DNA of 64,000 bases from Frigoribacterium sp. PvP032 (GTDB lineage: Bacteria > Actinomycetota > Actinomycetes > Actinomycetales > Microbacteriaceae): NCBI RefSeq assembly GCF_017833035.1, contig NZ_JAFIBM010000001.1:1302001-1366000 (forward strand), read 5' to 3'. Of this stretch, positions 10,451 through 36,614 are shown in pieces. The notes under the pieces are model-generated. The model ran no database searches. It was given only the letters and a program-made list of their open reading frames with translations, and was not told where the DNA came from. A program made the translations under genes and the position numbers. Numbering within the stretch: position 1 is the stretch's first letter; the number at the start of each line of letters is the position of its first letter.

Positions 10451-10484
10451 ACGTCGCAGCGGGAGGTGCCGCTGTCCGTGTCCG

Positions 10485-18755: not shown

Positions 18756-21700
18756 GGGGTGCTCCTGTCTCGGCGGCGGGGAACGCCGCCACCTGGACGA
18801 TGCGCGGTGCCGTCCCGCGCCGGACGAGGCGCCCTCGCCCCGGCGGGAACTGCTCGGCGAAGACCTTGGGGAACACGGGGCCCTCCGAGCGTTCCCCGCT
18901 CATGACGAGACCGGCACCGCCGCTGTCGCGCATCGACTGCAGGGCAGGGTCGAAGAGGGCCCGCGACGCACCCGCGACGGGACGGGTGGCGACGACGTGC
19001 AGGCCCAGGTCGCGGGACGACGGCAGATACGGCAGCAGGGGCCGGAGGGGCTCCGTGCCGGCGGAGGCGAGGATGTCGTAGTCGTCGACCAGCACGACGA
19101 TGCGGGGCCGCGGGCCGGTCACGGCACCGGTCAGCCGGGCCTCGAGCTCGTCCGCGATGGCCGTCGCGAGGCCCCTGGCGTCCCGGCCGTTGCTGGCGTG
19201 GCCGCCCAGGTAGGCGTCCGGCGTGCCCTCCACCGCGCCTCCTCGGACGTCCATGAAGGCGAGCACGAGCTCGTCGGGCGTCGCCCGGTCCATGAAGCCG
19301 CGAGCCAGGCCGCGCAGCAGCGTCGTCTTGCCGCAGCGGGTGTCGCCGAGCACGAGGAGGTGCTGGTCCCTGGCCGGGTCGAAGCCGACCCACTCCATCG
19401 TGTCCTGGCGCAGCCCGAAGGGCACCACGTCAGGGGCCTCGAGCTCGTCGGGCAGCTCGTCGGGGTCGAAGGACTCGGGCAGCAGCCGGATGGGCGAGGC
19501 CAGGGGGCCGCTCCAGCTGGCGGCCGACCGGCGGGCCAGCTGCTGCAGCGCCTCCGAGACCCTGTCGTCGTCGGTGTCGTCGAGGACGGGCAGCGCGACC
19601 TGCGCGAAGAGGGTGTCGTCCGTGAGGACGCGCCCCGGCTGCCCGCTCTTCAGCGTTGCCGAGAACTTGCGGCCGATGGTGCTGTCCTGCGGGTCGTTCA
19701 GCCTCAGCTCGAACCGCTGGCCGATCAGGGGCTGCACCGCCATCCGCAGCTCGTTCCACCGGGTCAGCCCGACCACGACGTGGATCCCGAAGCTGCCGCC
19801 GCGCTGCAGGAGGTCGGCGAACGGGTCCTCGAGCTCCTCGAAGTCGGTGCGCAGCGCGCCGTAGCCGTCGACGAGCAGGACGACGTCGGCGGACACGAGC
19901 TCGGGCACGGCTCCCTCGGCGTGACGCGCCCGCAGCATGGGGAGCGAGTCGATGTCGTGGTCGCGGAACACGGCCTCCCGGGTGCGGACCATGGCCTGCA
20001 GCTCCTCGAGGAGGCGGCGGAGGCGCGCGCGGTCGGAGCGGGTCGCGACGCCGCCGACGTGCGGGAACTGCTCGATCCTGGACAGCCCGCCGCCGGCGAG
20101 GTCCATCCCGTAGATGCTGACCTGGCGGGGGGTGTGCGTCAGGGCGAGCGACGCCGCCACCGTGCGGAGGAAGGTCGTGCGCCCGGACTGCGGCGCGCCG
20201 ACGACCGCCGCGTGCCCGCCTCCCTTGGTGAGGTCGACGGTCCACGCGCGCTGGCGCTGTCGCGCCGGCTCGTCGAGGAGGCCGAGCGGCACGGACATGG
20301 CAGCCGCGGGGGCCCGGCCCGGTGCGTCCACGACGGCTCCGAGGGCGAGCCTCGTGGGCAGCGGCGGCAGCCAGACGGGCGTCGTGGCGAGCCCTCCCAC
20401 GGCGATGCGGTCGACGGCCTCGTCGATCAGGGCCCGTCCCACCTCCGGCCGGGTCAGCTCGATCTCGCCCGGGTCGTCGTCCGCGGTGGCGACGGTGTTG
20501 TACGTCGGCAGCAGGAAGGGCGCGACCGCCTCGACGCCGTCGTGCCGCGCCGCGTCCGCACCGGAGACGGGGACGGGACCGGACACGTAGCCGGCACGGA
20601 AGCGGCGGTAGACGCTCGTGTCGACCTTGAGGTAGCCGTAGCCCGGCACGGCCGGCAGGTGGAACGCATCGGGGGTGTCGAGGACGACCTGGCTCTCTGC
20701 CTCGGAGAAGGTCCTCATGCCCAGCCGGTACGACAGGTAGGTGTCGAGGCCGCGCAGCTTGCCGCCCTCGATCCGCTGGCTCGAGAGCAGGAGGTGGACG
20801 CCGATCGAGCGGCCGATCCGGCCGATCGTGAGCAGCAGGTCCACGAAGTCGGGCTCCGCCGTCAGCAGCTCGCCGAACTCGTCGATGACGAGCAGGAGGT
20901 GCGGCATCGGGGGCAGCTCGGGGCGCGACGCGCGCATCTCGCGGTAGTGCGAGATGCTCGGCGACGAGTCCGCCTCCTTGAGCAGCTCCTGGCGACGCCG
21001 GACCTCGCCCGCGATGCTCGCCCTCGCGCGCTGCGTCAGCTGCGGGTCGTCGGCCAGGTTGTCGATCAGCCCGGCCACGTGGGGCAGCCGGACGAAGGGA
21101 GCGAAGGCGGCGCCTCCCTTGTAGTCGACGAGGATCATCGCGAGGTCGTCGGGCGAGTGCGTCGTCGTCAGGCCGAGGACGAGCGTCCGGAGCATCTCGC
21201 TCTTGCCCGAGCCGGTCGCCCCGATGCAGATGCCGTGCGGGCCCATGCCCAGCTGCGCGCTCTCCTTGAGGTCGAGGAGGAGGGGCGCCCCGACGTCGTC
21301 GACGCCGATCGGCACCCGGAGGAAGTCGCGGGGCGACCGGGGCCGCCACGTCGACGTGGTGTCCAGGGTCCTGACGTCGTCGACGCCGAGCAGGTCGATG
21401 ATGCCGACGGCTTCCTGGGCCTCGGTGCGTTCCTGGCTGGTGAGGGAGAGGCGCAAGGGGGAGAGGGCGCGGGCGACGGCCGTGAAGGCCGCCTCCGAGA
21501 CCGCGTCGCCGACTGCGCCGCGCTGCTCGGGCTCCTCGTCGCCCTCGGTCGCGAGCAGGTCGGTGACCGTGAGTCCGCCGTCGTCGTCCACCACGATGCG
21601 CGAGGCGACGTCAGAGGGCTCGTGGAGGCGGTCGGACAGCAGGTGGACGACCGTGATCCGGAGGTCGGCCAGGCCGAGGTCCTGGTCGGGCAGGGGCAGG

Positions 21701-22704
21701 CCGGAGGCCACGTGCCCGTGGTCGTCGACCAGCACGACCATCCTCGTCACCTCGGGCCTCGCCGACCCCGATCCGCTGCGCCGGACGCTGGCCGCGAGCT
21801 GGCTGCGCTCGCCGAGGTCGTCGGCGAGCACGCGTGACAGCTCGCGCGGCGAGGGGGCCACGCGACGCGCGGCCACGGGACCGTCGAGGGTCTCGTCCAT
21901 CGCGACGTGCGGCAGCAGGTCCCAGCCGGCCCAGTCGCCGGCGACCTGCTCGGGGAACGCCACCGCCACACGGACGTCGTCGGGCGAGTGCAGGGCCGCG
22001 ACCTGGACGGCGAGGGTCCTCGCCACGGCGAGCACCTGCTCTCGCCCGCCGACGACCGACACGTGGCCGACCCCGTCGAGGTCGACCGTGACGGGCATGC
22101 CGCGGACGACGCCGTAGTGCTGCGAGACCTGCTCGAGCTCGCTGAGCATGAGCGGGTCGAGGGGCTGGACGGGGTTCGCGTCGTCCGGGACGGCCAGGTC
22201 GAACCACCGGACCACGCCGAGCCCGACGCGCACCCGCAGGAAGTCGGTGTCGCCCCGGCGCCGCTCCCAGAGGCGGGCAGGGTCGAGCACGAGGCTGGGC
22301 AGGGCGTCCGGCGCCGGGTCGACCTCGGCCGCCCTGGCCCGCACCTCGCCGGCCCGGCGGCGCATGTCGCCGCGGACGCGCTCGAGGTAGTCGAGGTACC
22401 TCTCCCGCTGCGTCCGCCTGTTGCGGGCCGCGTTGCCCCGCTGGGTGAACGCCATGCCGAGGCCGCCCACGAGGGCGACGACGAAGATGAGCGCGGCGAC
22501 GACCATGAGCACGGGGTTGTTGCCGCGCAGGACGACCATCATCACGACCGACGAGACGGCGCCGACGACGGGCAGCAGGCTCTGCAGCGGGACGCCTCCC
22601 GCCGGTCCCTCCGGCAGCTGGGGAGGCGGCGCGAGCGACTCCGGCTGACCCGTGCTCACGGGGCGGGTGACGCGGGCGGGCCGGTGGACGATCCTCAGGG
22701 TCAC
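18745..22704 (-). CDS. eccC: type VII secretion ATPase EccC (FtsK/SpoIIIE family, three ATPase domains)
   Basis: 1319 residues, the full fused form of EccC. Two membrane helices near residues 40-80 (LLPVVGAVSSVVMMVVLRG, VVAALIFVVALVGGLGM) precede three P-loop domains. Domain 1 has GATGSGKSE (Lys501) with MILVDYKGGAAF and LLLVIDEFGELL; domain 2 has GAPQSGRTTFL, where Arg842 replaces the Walker lysine; domain 3 has GDTRCGKTTLL (Lys1126) with VVLVDDYDIL. EccC recognises WXG100 substrates and drives export through the membrane complex. GTG 22704 overlaps the upstream stop (GTGA). It is the core of the secretion operon. Confidence 0.95.
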   Translation of the reverse strand: MTLRIVHRPARVTRPVSTGQPESLAPPPQLPEGPAGGVPLQSLLPVVGAVSSVVMMVVLRGNNPVLMVVAALIFVVALVGGLGMAFTQRGNAARNRRTQRERYLDYLERVRGDMRRRAGEVRARAAEVDPAPDALPSLVLDPARLWERRRGDTDFLRVRVGLGVVRWFDLAVPDDANPVQPLDPLMLSELEQVSQHYGVVRGMPVTVDLDGVGHVSVVGGREQVLAVARTLAVQVAALHSPDDVRVAVAFPEQVAGDWAGWDLLPHVAMDETLDGPVAARRVAPSPRELSRVLADDLGERSQLAASVRRSGSGSARPEVTRMVVLVDDHGHVASGLPLPDQDLGLADLRITVVHLLSDRLHEPSDVASRIVVDDDGGLTVTDLLATEGDEEPEQRGAVGDAVSEAAFTAVARALSPLRLSLTSQERTEAQEAVGIIDLLGVDDVRTLDTTSTWRPRSPRDFLRVPIGVDDVGAPLLLDLKESAQLGMGPHGICIGATGSGKSEMLRTLVLGLTTTHSPDDLAMILVDYKGGAAFAPFVRLPHVAGLIDNLADDPQLTQRARASIAGEVRRRQELLKEADSSPSISHYREMRASRPELPPMPHLLLVIDEFGELLTAEPDFVDLLLTIGRIGRSIGVHLLLSSQRIEGGKLRGLDTYLSYRLGMRTFSEAESQVVLDTPDAFHLPAVPGYGYLKVDTSVYRRFRAGYVSGPVPVSGADAARHDGVEAVAPFLLPTYNTVATADDDPGEIELTRPEVGRALIDEAVDRIAVGGLATTPVWLPPLPTRLALGAVVDAPGRAPAAAMSVPLGLLDEPARQRQRAWTVDLTKGGGHAAVVGAPQSGRTTFLRTVAASLALTHTPRQVSIYGMDLAGGGLSRIEQFPHVGGVATRSDRARLRRLLEELQAMVRTREAVFRDHDIDSLPMLRARHAEGAVPELVSADVVLLVDGYGALRTDFEELEDPFADLLQRGGSFGIHVVVGLTRWNELRMAVQPLIGQRFELRLNDPQDSTIGRKFSATLKSGQPGRVLTDDTLFAQVALPVLDDTDDDRVSEALQQLARRSAASWSGPLASPIRLLPESFDPDELPDELEAPDVVPFGLRQDTMEWVGFDPARDQHLLVLGDTRCGKTTLLRGLARGFMDRATPDELVLAFMDVRGGAVEGTPDAYLGGHASNGRDARGLATAIADELEARLTGAVTGPRPRIVVLVDDYDILASAGTEPLRPLLPYLPSSRDLGLHVVATRPVAGASRALFDPALQSMRDSGGAGLVMSGERSEGPVFPKVFAEQFPPGRGRLVRRGTAPRIVQVAAFPAAETGAPRAS

Positions 22705-23615
22705 GAGACCGCCTCCTGCCGAGAGCCGACGTGCTCGACGTGCTCAGCGTGCTCGACGTCGGACGTGCTCGTCGACGCCTGCACGAGGGCCGCGGCCAGC
22801 TCGATGTGCGCGCGGCGGCTCGCCGGCCGCAGGGACCGGCTCGTCGGCGGGACGCCGGCCGTCTTCGCGGCGTCCCAGGGCAGCGTGACGAGGGGCACGT
22901 CGTGGTCTCCGCGCCGGCGGAGCAGCCGCGCGGCCGCGTGGCCGACCCCACCGACGTCGACGACGACGACCACGACGCGGGGCGGCGACGGGATGCGGGC
23001 GACGGTCCCGGCCAGCGCGACCGCCTCCTCCAGGGCGGCCCGTTCCGACCGGCTCACGACGGCGAGCACGTGGCTGTCCCTGGCGGCGTCGCCCAGGTCG
23101 ACGTGCGGCGAGCGGACGCCCCAGTCCGAGACGACGACCTCGTGGAACCGGGCGATCGGCTCGACCTCGTCGGCCCACCGGGACGGCACGGGGACGCGGG
23201 AGGGGTCGTCCCGGTCGCCGAGGCCCACCACGAGCGCGCCGGACGGCGCGACCGGGAGGTCCGTCGTGGCCTGCCACGAGGTCCGGGCCGTGCGTCGCAC
23301 CGCCGAGGCGGGCGTGCTCCGGGCCTCGTCGTCGAGACCGAGGTGCCAGACGGTCCCGCGCAGGCCCGCGGCGCCGTCCACCGCGAGGACGCGCCCTGCC
23401 CGGCGGTGAGCGAGCACCGAGGCCACCGCGGCGGCGGTCGCCGAGGTCCCCGAGCCGCCCGCGACGCCCGTGAGGCCGATGCGCCGGCTCGTCGACACGC
23501 TCTGTCGGATGTGCCGGTCGTCCTCGCCGAGGTCCCGCGCGCCTCCTGCCGTGCTCGTGAAGGCGCTGCGTGCGAGGGCGGACAGGACGTCACGGGGGTC
23601 GGGGGTCGCCCTCAT
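22701..23615 (-). CDS. MinD/ParA-like protein with degenerate P-loop, type VII operon
   Basis: 304 residues from ATG 23615 overlapping the eccD stop by one base (TGATG). A variable N-terminus is followed by GLTGVAGGSGTSATAAAV (residues 48-65), where MinD/ParA proteins have KGGVGKT. Both lysines are missing, as in the paralogue at 17704. VLAVDGAAGLRGTVWHLGLD and VVSDWGVRSPHVDLGDAARD resemble the family's switch regions. The C-terminal tail contains short EHAEHVEHV-like repeats. It lies between eccD and eccC. Likely a structural or regulatory relative of MinD ATPases; catalytic activity is doubtful. Confidence 0.65.
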   Translation of the reverse strand: MRATPDPRDVLSALARSAFTSTAGGARDLGEDDRHIRQSVSTSRRIGLTGVAGGSGTSATAAAVASVLAHRRAGRVLAVDGAAGLRGTVWHLGLDDEARSTPASAVRRTARTSWQATTDLPVAPSGALVVGLGDRDDPSRVPVPSRWADEVEPIARFHEVVVSDWGVRSPHVDLGDAARDSHVLAVVSRSERAALEEAVALAGTVARIPSPPRVVVVVVDVGGVGHAAARLLRRRGDHDVPLVTLPWDAAKTAGVPPTSRSLRPASRRAHIELAAALVQASTSTSDVEHAEHVEHVGSRQEAVS

Positions 23616-24946
23616 CAGAAGGTCCCCAGCAGCTGCGAGTAGAGGTCGAACGCGCCGAGGAGGAGCGGGAGGGCCGTGATCACGCTCAGGGTCTCGAGGA
23701 CGTTGCCGAGCGAGCGGAGCCGGGCGCGCGTGTGCGCAGCCGGCTGCACCCCCGCCGTCAGGACGGCCACGACCGCGACGGCGGAGAGGGCGGCGACGAG
23801 CACCCCGGCGGAGCCGGAGAGGTGCGAGGACAGGCCGACCAGGACGGCGACCGCGACGGCCGCCCACAGGAGAACGCCCTGCAGCGCCAGGGGGAACGAC
23901 CTCGTCCTCAGGGCCGTCACGAGCGTGACGACGACGCCGAGGGCGACAGCCCACGGGTCGTCCGACAGCACCAGGGCGGTGGCTGACGCCCCGAGGGGCA
24001 CGGCCACGGCTGCCGTCGCCCAGTCGAGCGACCGGTAGGCGTCGGCGAGGGTGTCGACGACCCTGTCGCGCGCGGGGAGGGACCCCGACGCCGTCTGGTC
24101 GTCGAGGCCCGTGAGCCCCGCGGTCGACATGGCGTACCAGGGCAGCAGCCCCGCGGCGAGCAGGGCGACCACCGCGACGACGCCCCAGGCGGCCTCGATC
24201 GGCACCGCCGTGAGCCACAGGGCGGAGGCGAGGAGGGCCAGGCCCGCGCCGAGGCCGGCGGCGGGGACGACGGGGCGGTGCCCGGAGCCGAGCCCGAGTC
24301 CCGCTCCCACGGCCAGCCACGCCCACGCGGCGGCCAGCGTCCAGGCGAGGGGGCCGGCGTGAGCCGGTGCGACCTGGGCGACCGAGACGCCGAGGGGGAG
24401 GGCCAGGCCCGCGCCCGCCGCCGTGAGGGAGGAGGCGGACCAGCGGCGGCCGGTCCGCCCCAGGACCAGCGAGAGGGCGGCGGCCGCCACCGCCACCGCC
24501 ACCAGGCCCGCAGCGGTGGCGGGCCGGTTCGCGGGGGCGGACGCGGCGTCGACCACGACGGACGCCGCGAGGAAGGTCGCGGCGCCGGCGACCGCCGCGG
24601 CGACGGCACGCCGGACGCGGGGAGACCACAGGTCGCCCCGCCGGGTGAGGGCCTCCGAGACCGCGTCGGTGACGTCGGAGACCTCGGGCGGCGGCGGCGC
24701 GTCGCTCCGGCGGACGAGGTGCAGCACCTCGCCGTCGGCCACCGACTGGGTGGCCGAGTCGCCGGAGAGGTCGATCTCGTCGCCCGTCACGCGCACCAGG
24801 GCGAGGGGCTGGGCCGAGTCGGTGCCCCGCTCGCCGAGCAGGTCGACGACGCGGGGCAGGAGCCCCGCCCAGGGCTCGGTGGTCGCGACGACCACGTCGG
24901 CACGCCTGGTGGCGCCGACGACGGTGATCCGGGTGAAGTCGGTCAT
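23615..24946 (-). CDS. eccD: type VII secretion integral membrane protein EccD
   Basis: 443 residues. Residues 5-85 form a ubiquitin-like (YukD-type) domain beginning FTRITVVGATRRADVVV. Eleven hydrophobic helices follow from about residue 113 to 435, broken by a polar loop near residue 275-305, the EccD architecture. EccD forms the membrane pore scaffold of type VII systems with EccB, EccC and EccE. ATG 24946 overlaps the preceding stop (ATGA). Length and helix number fit the family; sequence identity to mycobacterial EccD looks low by eye. Confidence 0.85.
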   Translation of the reverse strand: MTDFTRITVVGATRRADVVVATTEPWAGLLPRVVDLLGERGTDSAQPLALVRVTGDEIDLSGDSATQSVADGEVLHLVRRSDAPPPPEVSDVTDAVSEALTRRGDLWSPRVRRAVAAAVAGAATFLAASVVVDAASAPANRPATAAGLVAVAVAAAALSLVLGRTGRRWSASSLTAAGAGLALPLGVSVAQVAPAHAGPLAWTLAAAWAWLAVGAGLGLGSGHRPVVPAAGLGAGLALLASALWLTAVPIEAAWGVVAVVALLAAGLLPWYAMSTAGLTGLDDQTASGSLPARDRVVDTLADAYRSLDWATAAVAVPLGASATALVLSDDPWAVALGVVVTLVTALRTRSFPLALQGVLLWAAVAVAVLVGLSSHLSGSAGVLVAALSAVAVVAVLTAGVQPAAHTRARLRSLGNVLETLSVITALPLLLGAFDLYSQLLGTF

Positions 24947-25305: not shown

Positions 25306-26380
25306 GTCTGACCTGTTCTTCCTGGAGGGGGTCTGCCCCGGCTGCCCGGAGGACGTCGGCTCCGCCGACGGCGTCCAGCACCTCGGCCAGGCGGCCTATC
25401 CCCGCCGGGTCCACGCCGTCGCCGAGGGGGACGACGAGACCAGGGGTGCGGGGCCGGCCCGTGACGGCGGCGTCGAAGCGACGACCGAGGTCGGCGACGT
25501 CGAGGCCGAGGCCGCGGACCCCGGGGGGCCCGATCAACAGCGCGACGGGCACCGGCGGCGACTCGAGCACCGGCGGCCAGGTGAGGTCCGCACGGCCGCG
25601 CCGGGCCATGACGAGCCCGAAGAGCGGCATGCCGACCTCCGCGATCCCGGCGAGCAGCCGGGGCACGTCGGCCAGGCGACGGGTCACGTCGTCGTCGTCG
25701 ATCCCGCCGATCCCGACCAGGCCGGTGACGAGCTCCTCGACGCCGCGGTCGGTGCGCCGGGCGGTGACGTCGAGCGCGAGGGGCAGTCGTGCCGAGCCCG
25801 TGACGACGTACGTCGTGGCCCGCGGCATCCGGGACCGCGCGTGGGCCGTCATGGCCGGCCGGTCCCAGGTCCGGGCCGCCGGCTCGTGCGTGCCCCAGCC
25901 GGAGGGGACGTCGCCGTCCAGGTGCCGGACGATCCGCTCCACGGTGCCGCCCAGGAGGGTCTCGGCGCGGGCCTGGTGGCGCGTCGACGCCGAGACGACG
26001 AGCTGCGTCGCCGTCGGGGTGCGCAGGTCGAGGTGAGCGAGCGAGACGTCGTCGGGCGACCGGGGCGGCCCTGCCGTCACCGCGTCCTGGAACCGGTCGA
26101 GGCGCCGCCCCGACCGGCCGTCGCGCAGCTGGCCGTCCGCGCCGCGGACGACCCACCGTCCGCCGACCTGCTGCAGCGCGTGCCTCATCGGCTCGGTCAG
26201 CACGGAACGACCGTCCGACACGAGGACGACACGGCCGCCGGCACGGGCGACCTTCGCCAGCAGGTCGAGGCGCCCCTCGCTCAGGTGCACGACGGGGGCC
26301 CGCGTCTCGGTCCTGACCGTCCCCTCTCCCTCGCTGTCCGCGAGCGGGTGCGGGACGAACGGCTCGTCGACGGCGGTCAC
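25289..26380 (-). CDS. DUF6177-like type VII-associated protein (paralogue of 36779-37984)
   Basis: 363 residues from GTG 26380, overlapping the FHA gene stop (GTGA). No membrane segment. It aligns with the protein at 36779 along most of its length: RWVVRGADGQLRDG against AWAVHDERGRLRDG, RTWDRPAMTAHARS against RPWDRWVLTQSARH, and VALLIGPPGVRGLGL against VVLLIGAPSVQRLGL. Assignment to DUF6177, a family seen in actinobacterial type VII loci, is from memory and tentative. The ordered LLIGPPG segment is not a P-loop (no GKT/S). Function unknown. Confidence 0.65.
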   Translation of the reverse strand: MTAVDEPFVPHPLADSEGEGTVRTETRAPVVHLSEGRLDLLAKVARAGGRVVLVSDGRSVLTEPMRHALQQVGGRWVVRGADGQLRDGRSGRRLDRFQDAVTAGPPRSPDDVSLAHLDLRTPTATQLVVSASTRHQARAETLLGGTVERIVRHLDGDVPSGWGTHEPAARTWDRPAMTAHARSRMPRATTYVVTGSARLPLALDVTARRTDRGVEELVTGLVGIGGIDDDDVTRRLADVPRLLAGIAEVGMPLFGLVMARRGRADLTWPPVLESPPVPVALLIGPPGVRGLGLDVADLGRRFDAAVTGRPRTPGLVVPLGDGVDPAGIGRLAEVLDAVGGADVLRAAGADPLQEEQVRRAAEQ

Positions 26381-27492
26381 CGCTGACCCTCCCCGCCGGC
26401 CGGGACGTCGGCGTCCGGTGCGAACTCGAGGGCGAACTCGTGGTCGCCGATGCTCACGACCGCTCCCGGGCGCAGCTCCGCCTCGGTGCCCGGCGACACG
26501 GGCACGACCCCGCCGTCGGCCGTCCGCACCGTCGTCCCGTTGGTCGAGCCGAGATCGGTCAGCACGACGACGTCGCCCCGCCGCACGAGGGAGGCGTGGG
26601 ACTTCGAGAGCGTGCGCGAGAGGTCGGGGACGGCCAGCGGCACCGCGCCGTCGGGCGCGGCCGGGCCGCGACCGACCACGGCCGCGCCCGTGAAGACGTG
26701 GACCAGCCCGGATCGGAAGCGCAGCCGGACCTCGTCGGACGGGGCGGCTGCGGTGCCGTCGCCGACAGGGCGAGGTGCCTGGTCGGCTCGCGGCCGACGG
26801 GTGTCGGTCCCTGCCGACGAGACTGTCCGCTCGAGGTCGCCCAGGTCGTCCGCGACGGCGTCGCGCCGGTCGTCGAGCCGATCGCCGGACGACGTCCGGA
26901 CTGTCCCGCGGGAGGACGCCGGGACCACGGCAGACGGGTCGCGCCCGGTCGTCAGGTCGGCGACGACGGTGCCGAGCCGGCGGGACAGGGGACCCCGCAC
27001 GTCGTCGTGGCCCCTCGCCGGCCCGCGGCCGACGAGCCGGGCGGGGACGAGGCGGAGCCGGAGGGGAAGGCCGTCGGCGCCGTCGACCTCTCGCGTGCGG
27101 GCGACGAGCCCGCCGAGCGCTCGGCCGCGCCGCGACCAGGAGGCGGCGACGACGCAGGCGGAGGCGAGGGCCCCCAGCAGGGCGCCGACCACGACGCCTC
27201 GGGGCGATGCGTCCCCGGACACGGTCGCGTCCAGCAGGGCGAGGACGCCCGCGCCGGCCGCGGCGCCCGCCGCGAGGGTGAGGAGGTCGAGAGCCCTGCC
27301 GAGCAGGACGCGGCCCGAGGAGGCCGGTCGCGTGCCGCGCAGGCCGGCGGGGGCGTCGTCGTCGTTCCTCGCCCGGGGCGGACCGGCGGGGGAGCCGCAG
27401 TCGGCACAGCGGAGCGACCGCGGCGCGGTCCCTGCTCCGCAACGGGCACAGGTGACGGACGGGACGGCCGGGTCGGCGATCGACGACGTCAT
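26377..27492 (-). CDS. RDD-like membrane protein with zinc ribbon and FHA domain, first gene of type VII operon
   Basis: 371 residues. Cys15, Cys18, Cys29 and Cys32 form an N-terminal zinc ribbon. Residues about 60-125 hold two helices and an RDD-like stretch (GRALDLLTLAAGAA, RGRALGGLVARTREVD). The C-terminal FHA domain (about 265-355) has VVGRGP, the SKSHASL phosphopeptide-binding loop and TDLGSTNGTTV. FHA domains bind phosphothreonine, and RDD-FHA proteins accompany some type VII systems, suggesting phosphorylation-dependent control. GGGGAGGATCAGC before ATG is a strong ribosome-binding site, and it heads the eight-gene operon. Confidence 0.82.
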   Translation of the reverse strand: MTSSIADPAVPSVTCARCGAGTAPRSLRCADCGSPAGPPRARNDDDAPAGLRGTRPASSGRVLLGRALDLLTLAAGAAAGAGVLALLDATVSGDASPRGVVVGALLGALASACVVAASWSRRGRALGGLVARTREVDGADGLPLRLRLVPARLVGRGPARGHDDVRGPLSRRLGTVVADLTTGRDPSAVVPASSRGTVRTSSGDRLDDRRDAVADDLGDLERTVSSAGTDTRRPRADQAPRPVGDGTAAAPSDEVRLRFRSGLVHVFTGAAVVGRGPAAPDGAVPLAVPDLSRTLSKSHASLVRRGDVVVLTDLGSTNGTTVRTADGGVVPVSPGTEAELRPGAVVSIGDHEFALEFAPDADVPAGGEGQR

Positions 27493-27666
27493 GCTGATCC
27501 TCCCCTCAGGACGACACCAGTATGGCTGCTCGGGGAGGCCCGGCGGCTCGTCGGCCGGGCCCCGACGTGAGCAGTTCTCGTCCGGGGCGTGACTCGGCGG
27601 GAGACATCTGCTTGACTGAGCCGGTCATTGTCGCCCGGACGTGGGGTATCGAGGAGAGGTAACGAC

Positions 27667-28002
27667 ATGAAGTTCGCCATGGGGGCCCAGGTCCTGACCA
27701 ACCTGACCAAGCAGACGTCCGGCTCGAGCGAGGACCTCGGCACGCTCGTCCGCCGTCTCGCCGACGCGGCGGAGCCGCTGCAGGGCAAGTTCAACGGCAC
27801 CGGCCGCGCCGCCTTCGACAAGTTCAAGTCCGAGACCGACCGCATCGCGATCGACCTCGACCGCGCGCTCGGCAGCGTCCTCACCGGGATCGCCGGCATG
27901 GACCGCTCGTTCGCCGAGGGCGACCAGGAGATGGCCGACCAGACCCGCAGCGCCGACAGCAGCGCGAACTACGACGCCGCCCGCTTCGGCTCGCGCGCCT
28001 GA
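27667..28002 (+). CDS. WXG100-like secreted protein with FNG in place of WXG
   Basis: 111 residues, start ATG 27667 with GGAGAGG 7 bases upstream. Two amphipathic helices flank a turn at residues 42-44 (KFNGTGRAAF), exactly where WXG100 proteins carry Trp-x-Gly. The helix-turn-helix size is that of ESAT-6-like substrates exported by EccC systems. It is the first gene of the effector operon and diverges from the secretion operon. No classical YxxxD/E tail is at the C-terminus (NYDAARFGSRA has Tyr but not the acidic residue at the right spacing). Confidence 0.75.
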   Translation: MKFAMGAQVLTNLTKQTSGSSEDLGTLVRRLADAAEPLQGKFNGTGRAAFDKFKSETDRIAIDLDRALGSVLTGIAGMDRSFAEGDQEMADQTRSADSSANYDAARFGSRA

Positions 28003-28069: not shown

Positions 28070-28390
28070 ATGAGCAGTGGTGGGAACGCGGCCGACCGCC
28101 GCGACTACGACATCGCGTCGTCGCAGAACGCGCAGGACAACTTCAACGCCGTCGCCTCGCAGCTGGAGTCGCTCATCACGCAGCGCGACAGCGACGTCAA
28201 GGCCGCGATGAGCGACTACGCCGCCGACGGCGTCTCGGAGGACTACGCGTCCAAGGAGCAGAAGTGGAACGAGGTCGCCGGCGAGGTCCGGACGATCATC
28301 AGCACGCTCCGCTCGTCGCTCCAGCAGAACGACGAGAGCGCCACGAGTGCGATCAGCAAGGCGAAGTCCGCCGTCGGCAACATCGGCTAG
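28070..28390 (+). CDS. WXG100/ESAT-6-like small protein without WXG
   Basis: 106 residues, all-helical in appearance. The central turn reads SDYAADGVSEDYASKEQKWNEV, with no Trp-x-Gly but containing Y59-ASK-E63, a YxxxE pattern of the type VII signal kind, though in the middle rather than at the end. Helix two (66-100) is rich in Ser and Lys. GGGGAG lies before ATG. It probably pairs with the 27667 product as a heterodimer; that is inference from operon order. Confidence 0.7.
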   Translation: MSSGGNAADRRDYDIASSQNAQDNFNAVASQLESLITQRDSDVKAAMSDYAADGVSEDYASKEQKWNEVAGEVRTIISTLRSSLQQNDESATSAISKAKSAVGNIG

Positions 28391-28393
28391 CCG

Positions 28394-28768
28394 GTGGGTG
28401 ACCAGGGCTGGGCGGTCGACCCCGGCGGGGTCGAGGCCGTCCTCAACGACGTGCTCACGAAGAGCGCCGACATCTCCACAGCCCTCGGCGGCGCCGAGGG
28501 CACGACGGGCGGCGGAGTGGCCGCCAGCGCGATGAGCGCGGCGACCGCGGCCGAGTCGGCGGTGATCGGCGAGGCCCTGAACGGCTACTTCGAGGAGCAG
28601 TCGGCGACCATCCGCAGCATCGGCGACCGGATCCAGGCGTGCCTCCTCGGCGCGTCGGGGGCCGTCACCGCCATCCAGCAAGGCCACGAGGAGATGGCGG
28701 CGACCACGCAGGCGAACGCCGTGCACGCCGCCTCCACGGGCGACTTCAGCGCGTTCCAGGAGGGCTAG
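28394..28768 (+). CDS. small helical type VII-associated protein (DUF6507-like)
   Basis: 124 residues from GTG 28394, three bases after the previous stop. The opening GWAVDPGGVEAVLNDVL resembles the W-x-(I/V)-x-P-x-GV start I recall for DUF6507, a family of short chaperone- or substrate-like proteins in actinobacterial type VII loci; the assignment is tentative. The rest is Ala-rich helix. Its stop is followed after three bases by the toxin ATG. It may be the helical partner that delivers the toxin, as small Lap or WXG proteins do for LXG toxins. Confidence 0.65.
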   Translation: MGDQGWAVDPGGVEAVLNDVLTKSADISTALGGAEGTTGGGVAASAMSAATAAESAVIGEALNGYFEEQSATIRSIGDRIQACLLGASGAVTAIQQGHEEMAATTQANAVHAASTGDFSAFQEG

Positions 28769-28771: not shown

Positions 28772-31700
28772 ATGGCTGCTGCAGCGAGTCTCGTCGTCCC
28801 CGGCGGCATCCCCTACACCGACGTCGACCTCGAGGGCGTGTCCGTGGCCGCATCCGAGTTCCGGACGGCCGGAGGCGGCGTGCGCGACGGCGGATCCGCC
28901 GTCGTCACGTCGTGGGCCGGGCTGGCCACGAGCTACTCGGGTCCGAGCGACAGCACCCTGTTCGAGTCCATGACGCCCGTCGGCACGACGACCGACTCCC
29001 TCGGCTCGGACCTCGAGGCCATGGCCAGGGCCCTCGACGCCTTCGTCGAGGAGGCGCGTCCGATCGTCGACGCGCTCAAGGCGCTGAAGGCGGACGCGAC
29101 GACCCTCAAGGGCAAGGCGGACTCCTACGAGGGATCGTCGTTCCTCGGCATCACCTGGTCCGACAACTGGGACCAGGACGGCGACCTCAACGACGAGAAC
29201 ACGCGCATCGTCAACGGCGTCGCCGACAAGGTCGTCGCGTACCAGGCGGCGGAGCGCACCTGCGCGAACGCGATCAGGGCCCTGTCGGGGCTCGCTCCGC
29301 TCCACGCGATCCAGGGGGAGGACGACCCCCTGGGCTACGGCTACGAGGCCCTCCCGGAGGGGACGGAGCTGCCGTGGGGCCGGTCGAACAGCGAGACCGG
29401 CGAGTCGTGCGTCAAGAACACGGTCACGTTCATCCCCGACCTGATCGGGGGCATCGTCTTCGACGGCCTCATCATGGGCGTCGGCTGGGGCACGCTGCAG
29501 CTGCTCGGCTTCGGGCCCGGTTTCTGGAGCCTCGACAACCTCGGCACGATGTGGGGCGGCATGGGCACGCTCATCGGGCGCGACCCGGAGACAGGCGAGT
29601 TCGCCGGCGACACGGCGGGGGACGCCTGGGGGGCGTTCGGCCTCGAGATGGTCGCCGCCGACGAGTGGTCGGAGGACCCGGGGCGAGCCCTGGGCGCCGC
29701 GGCCTTCAACATCGTCACCACCGTCGTCCCGGTGATCGGCTGGGTCGGCAAGATCAGCAAGGCCGGGAAGGCCGCCGAGGCCGGTTCCCTCGCAGCGCGG
29801 GCTGCGCAGGTCGTCAAGCTCGTCGACCTCACCACCGACCCCTTCACCTGGGTGTCCAAGGGCAGCAAGCTCGTCCTGCCGACCCTCTCCGACATCGCCC
29901 AGAACGTGACGTCCGCGCTGTCGCCCGCCCACCTCGGCGACCTCACGGACTTCCGCGGGGTCGACGTGCCGTCGATGCAGGGCGGCCGGTTCGAGCTCGA
30001 CGGGGTGCACGCCGACGTCGAGGTGCCGGCTCCCCGGTCCGAGGCGCCGGCGGCCCCGCCGGCGACCGCCGACGTGCCCGTGCGCGTCCCCGAGCCAGCC
30101 CAGGTGGGCGGAGGCGGCCACCACGACGGAGGGACGTCCGGCTCCGGCGGCGGCGGGCCGGGGACGGATCCCTCGACCCCCTCGGGCGGCGGCACGCCGT
30201 CCGCGCCGGCCCCCGGCTCGGGGCTCGGCGACGGTCCGGCAGGGTCCGGTCCGGGCTCTGCGGGCGATCCGCCCACCGGTGACGCGCCTCCTGCCGACGG
30301 CCCTCCTGCCGACGGCTCTCCCGCCGACGCAGGCCAGCCGGGCCCCGGTGACGGAGGCCAGCCGCCGGGCACGCCGGGCACGCCCGGTCGCCCGCCCGTC
30401 GAGTGGACGCCCGACATGGGCGATCCCGTCCTGTCCGACGCGGACTTCGGTCCCGACTGGACCAGGGAGCCCGACCGGGGCGACCCGGTCGACCCGAACT
30501 ACGGCGAGGTGCAGCCGACATCGGGCACGACTCCGGCCGGCTACGACCACCCGGGCGTCGTCGACCCGGCCATCGAGCACCTGATCAGCGACGCGGGCGC
30601 GCCCTGGGGCCGTGACGTCGACGGCACGCCGTTCTCGCAGGCCGAGTACGACGCCCGCTACGTCGGCGACACGGGCATGCCCCGGTACCCGGGAAACGAC
30701 GGAGCGGTGTCCGGCACCTACGTGGAGTACACCTCCGCCGACTCCTTCACGCGCGACTACGGCTCCCAGATCGACCGTCTCGGAGACCCGTCGGGCGGCT
30801 TCCTGTCGCTCCCCGACACGCCCTTCGAGCAGCGCTCGTTGCCGCCGAGCAACCTGCGGGCGCCCTACTCGATTTACGTGCTCACGGGAGACCTGCCCGC
30901 AGGCGCTCGCATCGAGGTGTCCGAGATCGCGCCGGCGTTCGGCCGTCCGGGCGGCGGCATCCAGGTCCGGGTCCTCGACGCGTTCGACGAGGTGATGACC
31001 GTCGACCAGATGATCGACGAGGGCGTCGTCACCCGCACCGACGTCGACGGTGCCGACGGCAGCTACGTGGACACCTCCCTCGGCGGGGCCCCCGACGTGG
31101 TCCCGCCCGCGAACCAGGCACCGGTGCCGCACGTCGACGACGCGACGGACTTCCGGCTCGGCGGCTCGCTCGACGACCTGTCCGACCCTGCGCCGCGTGC
31201 CCCGCACGACCAGGTGCCCGTCGCGGACGACGCCACCGTGCAGGACACGTCCGTGCTCGACCCGACGGACCTCGGGCCCGACGCCGACGACATCCCCGTC
31301 GACGACCTCCTCGTCGACGACCTCCCTGTCGACCCCCGCGTGGACGACAAGACGACCCGCATCGTGCAGTCCGGCGGGAAGGGCGGCTGGAGCTACGAGC
31401 TCAACCACCCCGAGGCCGATGCCCGGTACGTCGTCGACGACCGCTTCGTGTTCGAGACCGATCACCGGGGACGCGTCGACTACAGCGAGGCCCAGCTCGA
31501 CCCCGGCTCCGTCGCGAGCGAGCGCAACAAGCATCAGCAGGTGGCCGCCGGGCGCGGGGACCGCGTCCCCGGCGACGAGGGCGGGCACATCTGGGCGAGC
31601 ATGTTCGGCGGGCCGGGCGAGGCCGTCAACCTCACCGCCATGCACGAGACGCTGAACAGCAAGGGCGTCGCCGAGTACGCCAAGATCGAGCGGATCTGGA

Positions 31701-31855
31701 AGGCGCAGCTCGCGTCGGGCTCCCCGGTCCACGCCTCGGTCGACGTCCACTACGACGGCGTCTCGCACCGTCCCTCCGGCTACGAGGTGAACTGGGTCGA
31801 CGCCGCGGGGAGGGTCAGGAGCGCATACCTCGAGAACGTCACGGCGCGGCCTTGA
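28772..31855 (+). CDS. type VII-secreted polymorphic toxin with tandem TNT and endonuclease domains
   Basis: 1027 residues. The N-terminal 200 residues are helical and LXG/WXG-like, followed by Gly/Trp-rich hydrophobic stretches (about 225-255, 320-345) and a Pro/Gly/Ser-rich spacer (about 410-560). A TNT domain (about 638-755) reads YPGNDGAVSGT, GGFLSLPDTPFEQRSLPP and APAFGRPGGGIQVR; Gln731 sits at the position of TNT's catalytic glutamine. TNT destroys NAD. After an acidic linker, residues about 885-1020 match non-specific endonucleases (Endonuclea_NS_2 type): GDEGGHIWASMFGG with His939, then AVNLTAMHETLNSKG and the IERIWKAQL helix. There is no signal peptide, consistent with type VII export. 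AGGAGGG precedes ATG. Confidence 0.85.
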   Translation: MAAAASLVVPGGIPYTDVDLEGVSVAASEFRTAGGGVRDGGSAVVTSWAGLATSYSGPSDSTLFESMTPVGTTTDSLGSDLEAMARALDAFVEEARPIVDALKALKADATTLKGKADSYEGSSFLGITWSDNWDQDGDLNDENTRIVNGVADKVVAYQAAERTCANAIRALSGLAPLHAIQGEDDPLGYGYEALPEGTELPWGRSNSETGESCVKNTVTFIPDLIGGIVFDGLIMGVGWGTLQLLGFGPGFWSLDNLGTMWGGMGTLIGRDPETGEFAGDTAGDAWGAFGLEMVAADEWSEDPGRALGAAAFNIVTTVVPVIGWVGKISKAGKAAEAGSLAARAAQVVKLVDLTTDPFTWVSKGSKLVLPTLSDIAQNVTSALSPAHLGDLTDFRGVDVPSMQGGRFELDGVHADVEVPAPRSEAPAAPPATADVPVRVPEPAQVGGGGHHDGGTSGSGGGGPGTDPSTPSGGGTPSAPAPGSGLGDGPAGSGPGSAGDPPTGDAPPADGPPADGSPADAGQPGPGDGGQPPGTPGTPGRPPVEWTPDMGDPVLSDADFGPDWTREPDRGDPVDPNYGEVQPTSGTTPAGYDHPGVVDPAIEHLISDAGAPWGRDVDGTPFSQAEYDARYVGDTGMPRYPGNDGAVSGTYVEYTSADSFTRDYGSQIDRLGDPSGGFLSLPDTPFEQRSLPPSNLRAPYSIYVLTGDLPAGARIEVSEIAPAFGRPGGGIQVRVLDAFDEVMTVDQMIDEGVVTRTDVDGADGSYVDTSLGGAPDVVPPANQAPVPHVDDATDFRLGGSLDDLSDPAPRAPHDQVPVADDATVQDTSVLDPTDLGPDADDIPVDDLLVDDLPVDPRVDDKTTRIVQSGGKGGWSYELNHPEADARYVVDDRFVFETDHRGRVDYSEAQLDPGSVASERNKHQQVAAGRGDRVPGDEGGHIWASMFGGPGEAVNLTAMHETLNSKGVAEYAKIERIWKAQLASGSPVHASVDVHYDGVSHRPSGYEVNWVDAAGRVRSAYLENVTARP

Positions 31856-31899: not shown

Positions 31900-33366
31900 A
31901 TGGACGTCAGCGTCGTCGAGCAGAAGCAGAAGGAGGCGGCGCTCGCCGTGTTCCGGGCCGTGTCGCGGGCAGGGGCGCCGTGGGCGCGGGTCCGGGTCTT
32001 CTGGTCCGAGATCGCCGGCAACGTCAGCACCTTCCTCGACATCTGGGACGAGCACGACGAGCGGTCGAGCATCCGCGTGCCGCGAGAGGTCAACGAGCCC
32101 CTCGAGGAGCTCCGCCGCCAGACCGAGCGCCCGGGAGAAGGTGCCTGGCTGAGCACGTTCCTCACCGTGACGGCCGAGGGGCGCTACTCCTACGAGTACA
32201 ACTACGACCGTCGCCCGTCCTGGACGAACGCCGACGAGCCCCTGTCCGGCCACGCCGACGACTCGCCCACGGACGAGTCGCTCCTCGAGGACCTGGCTCG
32301 GCATCCTCGACGCCCTGAGTCCCTTCCGGCCTGGTACCCGGTCGCGCGACCGGCGGCCGACGAGCGGCCGGTCGAGGTCGAGGTCGAGCCCGAGCGTGCC
32401 ACGACCCCGCTGGCGCCGCCCCCGTCCGTCGCCCACCTGGTCGCGATCCCGGGCTGGGCCGACGTGTGGCAGAGCGTCGTGGGGACCGTGGACCGCGTGC
32501 TGCGTCCTGAGGTCGTCCGTGAGCTCGCGCGCTCGCCGCGCGAGGAGCGCGTGCAGGAGACCGACGACGCCGCAGACGACGTGTGGAAGGCCGTCTGGGC
32601 CGATCGGGTCACGTCCCTCGACGCGGGGGGCGTCGTCGCGCTCTGGGAGCCCTGGGCCCGCGCGACCGGACGCGACCTGGCGCTCGGCCGCGCGGTCGAC
32701 CCCCGGGCCGACGTCGGCGTTCCTCTCGTCCCGAACTCGCCGCTGGACCTCGTGCTCCAGGACGTCGCCGACGTCGTCGACACGCTGACCGAGGCCGCCC
32801 TCGAGGCCAGGATCGCCGAGGTCGACGCCGGGGCCGAGGCCGAGGTCGACGCGCAGGTCGGCGCCGAGGTCGACGTCGACGTGCGCGGCCTCGTGGTCGC
32901 CCTCGCCGAGCGCGGCCGTCTGCGCATCGTCGAGCAGCCCGGCACGGAGCTGGCGGTCGGCAACGGCGACACGGGCTTCCAGGTGAGGGCGTCCGACCTC
33001 GGCTTCGACGTCGAGAGCACCGAGCGCGGCCGGGCCCGCGTGCGGGCCACGACCAGCACGCTCGACCTCGCCTGGCGCGTGCTCCTCTGGGAGCTTCGCG
33101 TGCCGGTCCGCGCCGAGCTCGGGCTCGAGCGCGTCGCCGTCAGCGACGACCTAGCCTCGATCCCCGCAGGGGTCGACGTCGAGGCGGACACCCGGGCGGT
33201 GACCCTGTCCTGGCGCTCCGCGGCAGGCGCCGAGTGGGTCGCGTTCCCCGGCTCGGGCGCACGCCGCTCCGCCGTGGGCTTCTCCCGGGTGCTCGAACTC
33301 GGGGCCCGCGCCGTCGTCGACCTCGTGCTCGACCCCGACGCGCCCCGGACCCTCGGCGGGGCCTAG
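31900..33366 (+). CDS. YezG/DUF600-like immunity candidate with extra C-terminal domain
   Basis: 488 residues, 44 bases after the toxin stop. Residues 1-150 resemble the YezG antitoxin family: a helical start, then GAWLSTFLTVTAEGRYSYEY, the pair of strands ending in an aromatic/acidic run, and LARHPRRPESLPAWYP. YezG-type proteins neutralise LXG toxins in Firmicutes. A middle region (about 190-300) is shared with the protein at 35682. The last 170 residues form an additional domain with alternating hydrophobic strands (GFQVRASDLGFDVEST, LDLAWRVLLWELRVPV). Position suggests immunity to one or both toxin domains; this is not proven. A tandem repeat overlaps its stop. Confidence 0.68.
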   Translation: MDVSVVEQKQKEAALAVFRAVSRAGAPWARVRVFWSEIAGNVSTFLDIWDEHDERSSIRVPREVNEPLEELRRQTERPGEGAWLSTFLTVTAEGRYSYEYNYDRRPSWTNADEPLSGHADDSPTDESLLEDLARHPRRPESLPAWYPVARPAADERPVEVEVEPERATTPLAPPPSVAHLVAIPGWADVWQSVVGTVDRVLRPEVVRELARSPREERVQETDDAADDVWKAVWADRVTSLDAGGVVALWEPWARATGRDLALGRAVDPRADVGVPLVPNSPLDLVLQDVADVVDTLTEAALEARIAEVDAGAEAEVDAQVGAEVDVDVRGLVVALAERGRLRIVEQPGTELAVGNGDTGFQVRASDLGFDVESTERGRARVRATTSTLDLAWRVLLWELRVPVRAELGLERVAVSDDLASIPAGVDVEADTRAVTLSWRSAAGAEWVAFPGSGARRSAVGFSRVLELGARAVVDLVLDPDAPRTLGGA

Positions 33367-33432: not shown

Positions 33433-34179
33433 TCAGTGCTGGTCGTGCAGCCGGGCGTCCGCGTCGTGCCGGTCCTGCAGCGCCCCGAGGTCCGCGACCG
33501 CGGCGAGGTAGGGCTCGAAGGCGGCGAGGTCGTCGTCCTCGAGGAACGGTCGTCCGACCTCGACGACGACGAGCGACCCTGCTGTCGGCAACACGACGAG
33601 CGTGGAGCCGGGCGTGCCCGCCGCGCCGTGGCGGGGCAGCACCTCCAGGTGGACGCGCCGGAGGTGACGGGTCACGACCGCACGAGCCTCCCGAGGGGCG
33701 GACACCAGCTCCGCCGCCGCGGCGTCCCGGGCCGCGGGCACGACGCGCGTCCAGCCCTTCGACTCCAGCGCCCCGGCCGTCTGCCCGATGCGCGCTGCCG
33801 CGACGAGGAGGGGGGAGTCGGGGGAGGAGGCGGGTCCGAAGCCCAGCCGCGTGCTGAGGGCCTCCTGCACGATGAGGCGCACCGCCTCCGTCGGGTCAGG
33901 GGTGCCGGTCGACGGCAGCCGGCCGACGACGTCCGCCACGAGGGCGACGAGGACGGCGGGCCAGCGCTCGACCACACGGTCGTCGAGGAGGTCGTCGTGC
34001 TCGCCCGTCCCGAGGGCGGCCGCGACGGCGTCGTCGAGGCCGGCCAGACGACGGGACGTCGGTCGGTCGAGGGCAGGCGGCAGCACCAGCCGAGGGCGCA
34101 GGAGGCGTGACACGGCACGCTGCCGCTCGGCCGCGTCCCGGGGGCGGCCCGCCGAGGCCCCCGCGTGGCCCGGCGTCAC
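33433..34179 (-). CDS. unknown protein coupled to the TNT-related gene
   Basis: 248 residues from GTG 34179, overlapping the TNT-related gene's stop (GTGA). No signal or membrane helix. A helical, Arg/Asp-rich N-terminal two thirds is followed by a beta-looking end (LVVLPTAGSLVVVEVGRPFLEDDDLAAF). No family recognised. Coupling to a TNT-related gene makes an immunity or chaperone role possible, but nothing in the sequence shows it. It converges on the toxin operon. Confidence 0.6.
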   Translation of the reverse strand: MTPGHAGASAGRPRDAAERQRAVSRLLRPRLVLPPALDRPTSRRLAGLDDAVAAALGTGEHDDLLDDRVVERWPAVLVALVADVVGRLPSTGTPDPTEAVRLIVQEALSTRLGFGPASSPDSPLLVAAARIGQTAGALESKGWTRVVPAARDAAAAELVSAPREARAVVTRHLRRVHLEVLPRHGAAGTPGSTLVVLPTAGSLVVVEVGRPFLEDDDLAAFEPYLAAVADLGALQDRHDADARLHDQH

Positions 34180-34829
34180 GGGCCCTCGACGAGCTCGACG
34201 AGACCGGCGACCAGGAGGTCCCGCAGGCCCGTGCCGGCATCCGCCACCGTGAAGCGCAGGCCGCCTCCTGGGCGGCCGAACCACGGCGGGGTGACGACGG
34301 CGCGCATGAGGACGACGCCCGTCGTCATCACGACGTGGACGCGGGCGGGCGCGCTCACGGCCGTCGGCGGGAGGGAGCGCGCCTCGAGGTCGGTCCCCGC
34401 GACGTACAGGTGGACCCCGTCGAGGGCGCCGACCCGGTCGAGTGGCACGCCGGGCGGCACCTCGACGAGGACGCCGGCGTCGCCGGCCGCCCGTGCCCGC
34501 GCGGACAGGGGCATGACGAACTGCTCGACGCGGAGCGCGGCGGCCGCCACGTCGACCGGCCCCAGCGCGGAGGAGGGAGGGAGGGGGCGTGAGACGTACT
34601 CGACGACGCCGTCGAGCGCCGCGTCCCGGCCGGGGAAGCGGCGGAGGAGATGCCCGTGGCCGTAGTCGACCGTCTCGAGTCGCCAACGGCCAGAGCCGTC
34701 GCGCTCGTCGGCGCGCACCACGAGGGCGCCCTCGAGCGGGGGTGACGCGAGCTCGTCGCCCGGCAGCACGACCGCCTCCGGCGGGATCCCCTCGGCGGTG
34801 AGCGCGTCCCTCGTCCGTGTCGTCCCCAT
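34176..34829 (-). CDS. TNT-related protein with Arg at the catalytic Gln position
   Basis: 217 residues. The N-terminus GIPPEAVVLPGDE and the C-terminal third match the stand-alone TNT-related family: LEARSLPPTAVSAPARVHVV and TPPWFGRPGGGLRFTVADAG followed by a closing helix. Compared with the toxin's GRPGGGIQ, the active-site glutamine position is Arg here, and the region before it is shorter. It may be an inactive or differently acting relative rather than an NAD glycohydrolase. ATG 34829 lies 6 bases after TAGGAT. It is transcribed away from the RDD gene. Confidence 0.72.
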   Translation of the reverse strand: MGTTRTRDALTAEGIPPEAVVLPGDELASPPLEGALVVRADERDGSGRWRLETVDYGHGHLLRRFPGRDAALDGVVEYVSRPLPPSSALGPVDVAAAALRVEQFVMPLSARARAAGDAGVLVEVPPGVPLDRVGALDGVHLYVAGTDLEARSLPPTAVSAPARVHVVMTTGVVLMRAVVTPPWFGRPGGGLRFTVADAGTGLRDLLVAGLVELVEGP

Positions 34830-35681: not shown

Positions 35682-36614
35682 TCAGGCCACGACGGCCCGG
35701 AGGTGCTCGGCGACGACCGCGTCGACGACGCTCGCGACGGCCGCCTCGACGGCCGGCACGACCTCGGGGGAGGCGACGCGCGCCTCCTCGAGGCCCAGCT
35801 CGGGGTCGACCGACTCGACCGCGTCGACGGCGGGCAGCACACCGGCGTCGACGGCCTCGGCGTGCAGCCGGAGCAGGGTGGCGACCCGGTGGGGCGCGAT
35901 CACGTCGAGCACGACGGCGTCCCGCACGCGGAGGGCGAGCTGGCCGAGCGAGAGCTCCGGCGCGTCGGACTCGTCGGCGGGCGTGGCCTCGGGCGACGAC
36001 GCCACCGGTGAAGCCGCGGTCTGCTGCGCGACGCTCGCGAGCACTCCCGGCCAGCCCCAGCGGCCCGCGAGACCGGAGAGCGAGGCGGGGAGGACCGCGG
36101 CGGGTGCGGTGGCCGAGGGAGGGGCGGCCGGCGACCCGGAGGCGGTGGGAGAGGTCGCCGCGGCAGGTGCGACGCCCTCTGGCAGCCACTCGGGCCGGTA
36201 CTTCTCGGCACGGGGGAAGCGCGCGAGGTCCGCGGCGTAGTCCGCGTCGGTGGGGACGACCACGTCGTTCGTCGCCTCGAACGGCGACGCGGAGTCGTCG
36301 AACACGCGTCGCTCGCCGTTGAAGCGCGCGGTGAAGGAGCCGTCGGCCGAGAGCGTGAGCACGAGCGAGAACCACGTGCCGCGCTCGGGATCGGCCATCG
36401 CCTCACGGAGCTGCCGCCCGAGGGCCTCGACATCCGGCGTCGGGAGGTCCTGCTTCACGCTGCCGGCCGCGTCGAGGGCGTCGACCCAGGTGCGGCTGAC
36501 GTCGCCGACCTGCAGGAGGAACAGGGTCGCCTCCGCCCAGTCGACGTCGACCAGGGACTCGGCGACGCGAGCGGCGATCTGGTTCTGCAGGTCCTGCTGT
36601 CGGGCGACGTCCAC
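35682..36614 (-). CDS. second YezG-like immunity candidate
   Basis: 310 residues from GTG 36614 with GAGAGG upstream. Its first 160 residues parallel the 31900 product: both start MDV, share GTWFSLVLTLSADGSFTARF against GAWLSTFLTVTAEGRYSYEY, and YAADLARFPRAEKYRPEWLP against LEDLARHPRRPESLPAWYP. The C-terminal Ala/Val-rich helical part corresponds to the middle of that protein, while the extra C-terminal domain is missing. It is unlinked to a toxin gene, so it may be an orphan immunity gene or protect against another strain's toxin. Confidence 0.65.
   Translation of the reverse strand: MDVARQQDLQNQIAARVAESLVDVDWAEATLFLLQVGDVSRTWVDALDAAGSVKQDLPTPDVEALGRQLREAMADPERGTWFSLVLTLSADGSFTARFNGERRVFDDSASPFEATNDVVVPTDADYAADLARFPRAEKYRPEWLPEGVAPAAATSPTASGSPAAPPSATAPAAVLPASLSGLAGRWGWPGVLASVAQQTAASPVASSPEATPADESDAPELSLGQLALRVRDAVVLDVIAPHRVATLLRLHAEAVDAGVLPAVDAVESVDPELGLEEARVASPEVVPAVEAAVASVVDAVVAEHLRAVVA

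Follow-up and report, generated by a model that had tools for sequence, protein, structure and literature searches.

The DNA analysed here, a stretch of 64,000 nucleotides from Frigoribacterium sp. PvP032 (contig NZ_JAFIBM010000001.1, positions 1,302,001 to 1,366,000; hereafter the window), encodes a 1027-residue toxin in which a TNT-type domain, predicted to destroy nicotinamide adenine dinucleotide (NAD), and an EsaD-type nuclease domain stand one behind the other. Behind this gene lies another for a 488-residue protein, in which a predicted antidote to the nuclease and a predicted antidote to the NADase are fused in the reverse order of the two warheads. We consider it probable that this is an interbacterial toxin secreted by a type VII system, that both of its warheads work, that the fused protein is its antidote and that the arrangement arose by nested insertion of cassettes. 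We infer the enzyme activities, the export by the neighbouring type VII system, the antibacterial role and the route of insertion from comparisons of sequences and predicted structures.

Two toxic domains in one chain

The toxin gene and its parts are as follows.

28772..31855, + strand: predicted two-warhead toxin gene, 1027 aa, an open reading frame (ORF) without internal stop
28772..30031, + strand: N-terminal delivery part, residues 1-420, from BLAST
30545..31030, + strand: warhead 1, predicted TNT NAD glycohydrolase domain, residues 592-753, with R669/F677/R688/Q731 present
31067..31381, + strand: acidic linker, residues 766-870, predicted to be disordered up to residue 857
31385..31843, + strand: warhead 2, predicted EsaD-type Endonuclea_NS_2 nuclease, residues 872-1024, with H939/N962

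In this chain the N-terminal part is followed by a Gly/Pro-rich stretch, the TNT domain, the acidic linker and the Endonuclea_NS_2 (NS_2) nuclease. Residues 663-754 match the TNT family of Pfam (PF14021; E 6.3e-20, 71.9 bits, cut-off 27), and a sequence comparison of the region with solved structures found TNT itself (4qlp_B, E 9.5e-34). In AfNADase, mutation of R129, F137 or Q194 is reported to inactivate the enzyme and R148 to touch the nicotinamide (PMC7955114). Their equivalents in the toxin are R669, F677, Q731 and R688, respectively, and the initial annotation had placed Gln731, which aligns with Q194, at the catalytic position.

The second region matches the NS_2 family at residues 888-1007 (PF13930; E 2.1e-18, 67.2 bits, cut-off 27), and by sequence it finds EsaD among solved structures (8guo_B, E 8.3e-17). 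EsaD is described as having a catalytic H528 and an Mg-binding N551 (PMC9616950); these align with H939 and N962 of the toxin, at an identical spacing of 23 residues. The predicted structure of the TNT region matches the TNT fold and that of the nuclease region the His-Me finger nuclease fold, and the solved folds of the two differ. The initial annotation had read the protein as two separate warheads in tandem, with an acidic linker and then a nuclease with His939, and had proposed to search and fold the two regions separately. That reading was borne out, since each region passed its Pfam cut-off, the active-site residues are in place, the linker is predicted to be disordered, the folds are distinct and TNT with NS_2 also occurs in three relatives. 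On sequence and modelled structure, residues 592-753 are a TNT-type NAD glycohydrolase domain that would hydrolyse NAD, and residues 872-1024 are an EsaD-type nuclease domain that would cleave DNA.

By BLAST, residues 1-420 are common to TNT-only, NS_2-only and TNT-plus-other toxins of relatives. The same N-terminal part carries TNT only in loci L106 and L116-L118 and NS_2 only in L041, L043, L044 and L046, and TNT and NS_2 together are also found on toxins that share it. No LXG domain was found in the whole 1027-residue protein (no LXG family at E≤1), the ncbifam search gave no family over the cut-off, and no relative of the toxin was found in the viral contigs scanned. The genome is a single contig, and NS_2 matches nothing in it but the toxin, which is also the stronger of its two TNT matches.

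Relatives came from samples of 396 genomes of the order, 398 of the family and 396 of the phylum, and from a contig scan that gave at least 13 loci. The family sample held 24 genomes with a TNT match, 19 of which, including that of the window, were examined (all except G477, G510, G513, G683 and G730). We took as TNT toxins the 33 ORFs longer than 450 aa with a TNT match below 1e-15 in the loci examined; these are best matches and not a random sample, and L104, a duplicate of L036, was left out of the counts. The chain ends at most 20 residues past TNT in 22 of them, continues for 70 residues in L126 and for at least 200 in the other 10. All of these 10 keep the catalytic R, F/Y, R and Q (Tyr replaces Phe in L100 and L101), and their inner TNT domains are 36-60% identical to that of the window in alignment A5 (without L105 and L113).

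The domains behind TNT vary. An NS_2 nuclease is found there in 4 of the 10, directly after TNT in the window, L112 and L114, and after a papain-fold domain in L100. L035 and L101 have papain-fold tips distant from the papain-fold domain GlnA, L105 has a Tox-REase-5-like tip under the cut-off, and the tips of L034, L099 and L113 have no assigned family. The last 363 residues of the L034 toxin (2310-8459) contain an HEGGH motif and match no Pfam family over the cut-off, and this tip is possibly metallopeptidase-like. In L035 (G021, 3203-12194), a toxin of 1993 residues strings together a papain-fold domain, Ntox15, TNT and another papain-fold domain; behind it come immunities of the IFT-like and fused Tdi1-Ximm kinds.

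No second genome in the sample of 396 order genomes had a single match spanning both domains; the contig scan and the 398-genome family sample supplied L100, L112 and L114. The distribution of the toxin locus looks patchy, because the nine same-genus genomes listed had no TNT match at E 1e-6. The close TNT relatives belong to Agromyces and Microbacterium, both Microbacteriaceae. Seven of the 10 two-warhead TNT domains form one group (84/88, a rough bootstrap) despite their differing tips. In the NS_2 tree, the window and L114 stand together (99/96), with a long-branch warning on the join that holds them, and apart from L112, L113 and L119 (96/93). This separation of the sequences suggests two or more events that joined TNT to NS_2. 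L112 and L113 come from the same genus and differ in their tips, the NS_2 tip being present in L112 only. In L113 (7266-11449), a relative of L112 with another tip, an orphan NS_2 ORF close to the L112 tip is found downstream, together with several YezG and IFT ORFs.

The fused immunity protein and the order of immunities

The gene behind the toxin consists of three regions.

31900..33366, + strand: predicted fused two-headed immunity protein, 488 aa
31900..32370, + strand: YezG/EsaG-like domain, residues 1-157, predicted anti-nuclease head
32380..32874, + strand: middle region, residues 161-325, from BLAST
32872..33360, + strand: IFT-like domain, residues 325-487, predicted anti-NADase head

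This gene begins 44 bases past the end of the toxin gene, and a purine-rich GGAAGGGGAGGG precedes its ATG. Residues 1-157 are of a YezG-like family located behind the NS_2 toxins of relatives, and the last 163 residues are of a family located behind TNT toxins; the middle region (residues 161-325) had no BLAST homologue in the relatives' loci compared. An IFT-family profile (A9), built without the window sequence, finds the IFT of PDB entry 4qlp_A at E 7.5e-17, and a near-identical profile (12 of the 13 rows of A9) hits residues 327-479 of the 488-residue protein at E 5.7e-24. When the IFT profile was run against the 329 ORFs of the window, this gene came first and the next match had an E of 0.71. 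On the YezG side, a window-free profile run against the window ORFs gave E 2.8e-14. Searched singly against PDB by phmmer, the 488-residue protein and the L034 immunity had no meaningful match.

YezG/EsaG proteins are reported to inhibit NS_2-type nucleases (PMC9616950), and DUF600 (YezG) is the Imm36 of Zhang et al., whose primary toxin association is with NucA-type nucleases (PMC3482391). Two YezG-like genes of the window had initially been taken as the two immunities. We rejected this account on two grounds: the two genes are both of the anti-nuclease family, and the head recognised by the IFT profile is a separate one. The anti-NADase immunity is predicted to be the C-terminal third of the 488-residue protein, related to IFT and placed behind the YezG-like domain, and each head presumably pairs with its own warhead.

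The order of immunities was counted over loci in which two or more warheads and their mates are recognised (TNT-IFT, NS_2-YezG, papain-fold GlnA-Ximm and Ntox15-Tdi1), using same-strand immunities within 5 kb downstream and the first copy of each kind; positions of Ntox15 and Tdi1 were entered by hand. In 12 of 13 pairs the two immunities stand in reverse order, that to the later warhead preceding the other, and eight of the nine loci are fully nested. Behind the inner-TNT toxins, a sense-strand IFT-like gene or domain was found downstream in 9 of 10 loci; it is weak in L105 and truncated in L100, in which Ximm and then the truncated IFT lie in one chain. The roughly 90-residue domain Ximm occurs in L035, L045, L099, L100 and L125, all of which have the same papain-fold domain, and we infer it to be the immunity to GlnA. 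L101, with its weak GlnA match, is outside the GlnA-Ximm count. Fused immunities match their toxin in all four cases.

Window: toxin TNT+NS_2, fused immunity YezG-IFT
L045: toxin GlnA+NS_2, fused immunity YezG-Ximm
L125: toxin GlnA+TNT, fused immunity IFT-Ximm
L035: toxin GlnA+Ntox15, fused immunity Tdi1-Ximm

Neighbouring genes and the type VII context

Around the toxin and its immunity gene, the window contains the following genes.

18745..22704, - strand: EccC-like FtsK/SpoIIIE ATPase of a type VII system (FtsK_SpoIIIE 233 bits)
23615..24946, - strand: EccD-like membrane protein with YukD domain (EccD 60.5 bits, YukD 38.1 bits)
25292-26386, - strand: DUF6177 gene
26377..27492, - strand: FHA-domain protein
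27628..28002, + strand: WXG100-like small protein (22.9 bits, under the cut-off of 27.3)
28070..28390, + strand: small protein conserved beside such toxins
28394..28768, + strand: DUF6507 protein, a possible partner of the toxin N-terminus (63.7 bits, cut-off 25)
34176..34829, - strand: likely pseudo-TNT gene, with Arg at the catalytic Gln position
35682..36614, - strand: second YezG-like protein, 310 aa
36632-37981, + strand: DUF6177 gene

The EccC- and EccD-like genes lie upstream of the toxin. The two DUF6177 genes flank the toxin region, and relatives of the second adjoin toxins in several relatives. Over its full length, the 310-residue YezG-like protein is related to the product of the immunity gene that follows the L114 toxin (31% over 325), and it may be a second anti-nuclease protein.

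A second TNT family, made up of short ORFs of 209-314 aa, adjoins toxin loci in the window, L034, L035, L099, L100, L101, L114, L116, L117 and L118. All 10 copies have Arg in place of the catalytic Gln, and this family is likely a pseudo-enzyme. Family f14 has ORFs, 363-441 aa long except for one of 690, in which a YezG-like region is followed by a pseudo-TNT of this kind; the count used 10 of 29 loci (L054-L056, L058, L060, L063, L066-L068 and L073). The tie between YezG and TNT extends beyond the toxin.

Interpretation and alternatives

In the reading that we prefer, the type VII machine with the EccC- and EccD-like genes would export the toxin together with its small partners. Once inside a rival, the toxin would use TNT to hydrolyse NAD(P) and the EsaD-type nuclease to cut DNA; the producer would be protected by the YezG-like head, which would block the nuclease, and by the IFT-like head, which would block TNT. 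A tip-plus-immunity cassette would have inserted, in frame, behind TNT and ahead of its IFT gene, which would give the order warhead 1, warhead 2, immunity 2, immunity 1, and in the window lineage the two immunities would have fused after the insertion. A lost stop or a change of frame could join neighbouring immunities in this way. The mirror order is the trace to be expected of nested insertion of whole cassettes.

Several observations weigh against this reading. His792 of CpnT aligns with Ser700 of the toxin. The column is variable (H, S, N, F, Y, A, T, M, R or W among the tabulated toxins), and because it varies across the family we did not count the position as TNT-defining and rejected the missing histidine as proof that TNT is dead. 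In the predicted toxin structure, the nuclease half has only moderate confidence. YezG of Pfam (PF04634) gives residues 1-160 of the immunity protein 14.0 bits against a cut-off of 21.7 and matched 5 of 14 members of the YezG-like family at E≤0.1, and the profile of this family found BH3703 and EsaG first in PDB, but at E 0.0056-0.0079. An in-frame GTG at 32881 could allow the IFT part to be made separately, and the 310-residue protein, rather than the fused one, may be the main nuclease antidote, given its full-length relationship to the L114 immunity gene. As to the order of immunities, L034 breaks the nesting with a Tdi1-type gene before IFT, two of the 12 reverse-order pairs rest on the truncated IFT in L100, and L101 has no sense-strand IFT match, its sole match to the IFT profile being antisense and weak. 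The pairing of Ximm with GlnA rests on co-occurrence, in five of six GlnA loci. We claim no p-value because the loci are related and their pairs are not independent.

It is possible, but unlikely, that only the terminal nuclease works and the inner TNT is the leftover of an earlier tip. Polymorphic toxins do evolve through tip exchange, L113 suggests such an exchange beside an orphan NS_2 cassette, and the window TNT does not keep H792 of CpnT. However, a leftover does not fit well with the retention of R, F/Y, R and Q by all 10 inner TNT domains (36-60% identical to that of the window in alignment A5), with the sense-strand IFT-like gene or domain downstream in 9 of 10, or with the clustering of seven inner TNTs while their tips differ.

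NAD and DNA are universal targets. The toxin might be directed at eukaryotes such as protozoa or fungi, as CpnT is at macrophages, with the nuclease as an addition, and the TNT of CpnT is reported to act in host cells (PMC8092274). We regard this as distinctly unlikely, since dedicated immunities and orphan tip cassettes are the usual marks of interbacterial conflict. It is highly improbable that the 488-residue protein guards against foreign toxins, as a polyimmunity or rescue protein, and is not the dedicated antidote of its own toxin. Polyimmunity proteins are known, usually from operons without toxins (PMC3482391), whereas this gene lies 44 bases behind a toxin, its two recognised heads fit the two warheads, and other matched fusions occur in L045, L125 and L035. 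An artefact, in which a frameshift or mis-assembly fused two genes, has a negligible chance in a single-contig genome, with no internal stop and the same architecture in L112 and L114.

Among known systems, YeeF/YezG of Bacillus subtilis reportedly combines an NS_2 nuclease with a YezG-family immunity. EsaD/EsaG of Staphylococcus aureus is like the window locus in its NS_2 nuclease with the same His and Asn and its YezG-family immunity (PMC9616950). In contrast to both, the window toxin has no LXG match, and its nuclease is the second of two warheads. CpnT of Mycobacterium tuberculosis ends in TNT, whereas the window toxin continues with a nuclease and its IFT-like domain, unlike the IFT there, is fused behind a YezG-like domain.

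That polymorphic toxins usually end in one toxin domain, as the initial annotation stated, is fair as a generality; however, a Streptomyces toxin with multiple toxin domains was mentioned in 2012 (PMC3482391), and two-toxin effectors of the type VI secretion system (T6SS) have been demonstrated experimentally (PMC12135965). The latter, the double-blade WHIX effectors, likewise have two toxic domains and two immunities, but as that report describes them, the toxic domains flank WHIX and the immunity proteins are separate, whereas in the window both domains are C-terminal, the context is type VII and the immunities are fused (PMC12135965). The polyimmunity proteins of Zhang et al. (2012) likewise carry several immunity domains per chain, but are described there as usually lying away from toxins, whereas the heads in the window fit the warheads of the neighbouring gene, in reverse order (PMC3482391). 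In the literature on two-domain and type VII toxins, mostly papers available without subscription, we found no toxin of a type VII system with a fused antidote to match its domains. The nearest published cases in this literature are the T6SS double-blade effectors (PMC12135965) and those of the 2012 survey (PMC3482391).

We lean slightly towards a wider model, in which toxins of this actinobacterial type VII family grow by nested insertion to 2-4 warheads with immunities in mirror order, adjacent immunities repeatedly fuse into multi-headed antidotes, and TNT is kept inside while the tip is exchanged. Under this model, each in-frame insertion would place a cassette between a warhead and the matching immunity, and warheads would accumulate in nested order. 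With TNT retained inside while the tip is exchanged, a rival would have to hold several immunities at once. Combined delivery of several toxins reportedly restricts how resistance to T6SS evolves (PMC11745330). The fused antidotes also predict partners, namely Ximm for the papain-fold domain, and genes adjoining the tips of L034, L099 and L113 for those tips. If both warheads work, one delivered molecule would hit both NAD and DNA, and a surviving rival would have to carry both antidotes. The mirror order would be a readable record of polymorphic toxins gaining warheads, beyond merely swapping them.

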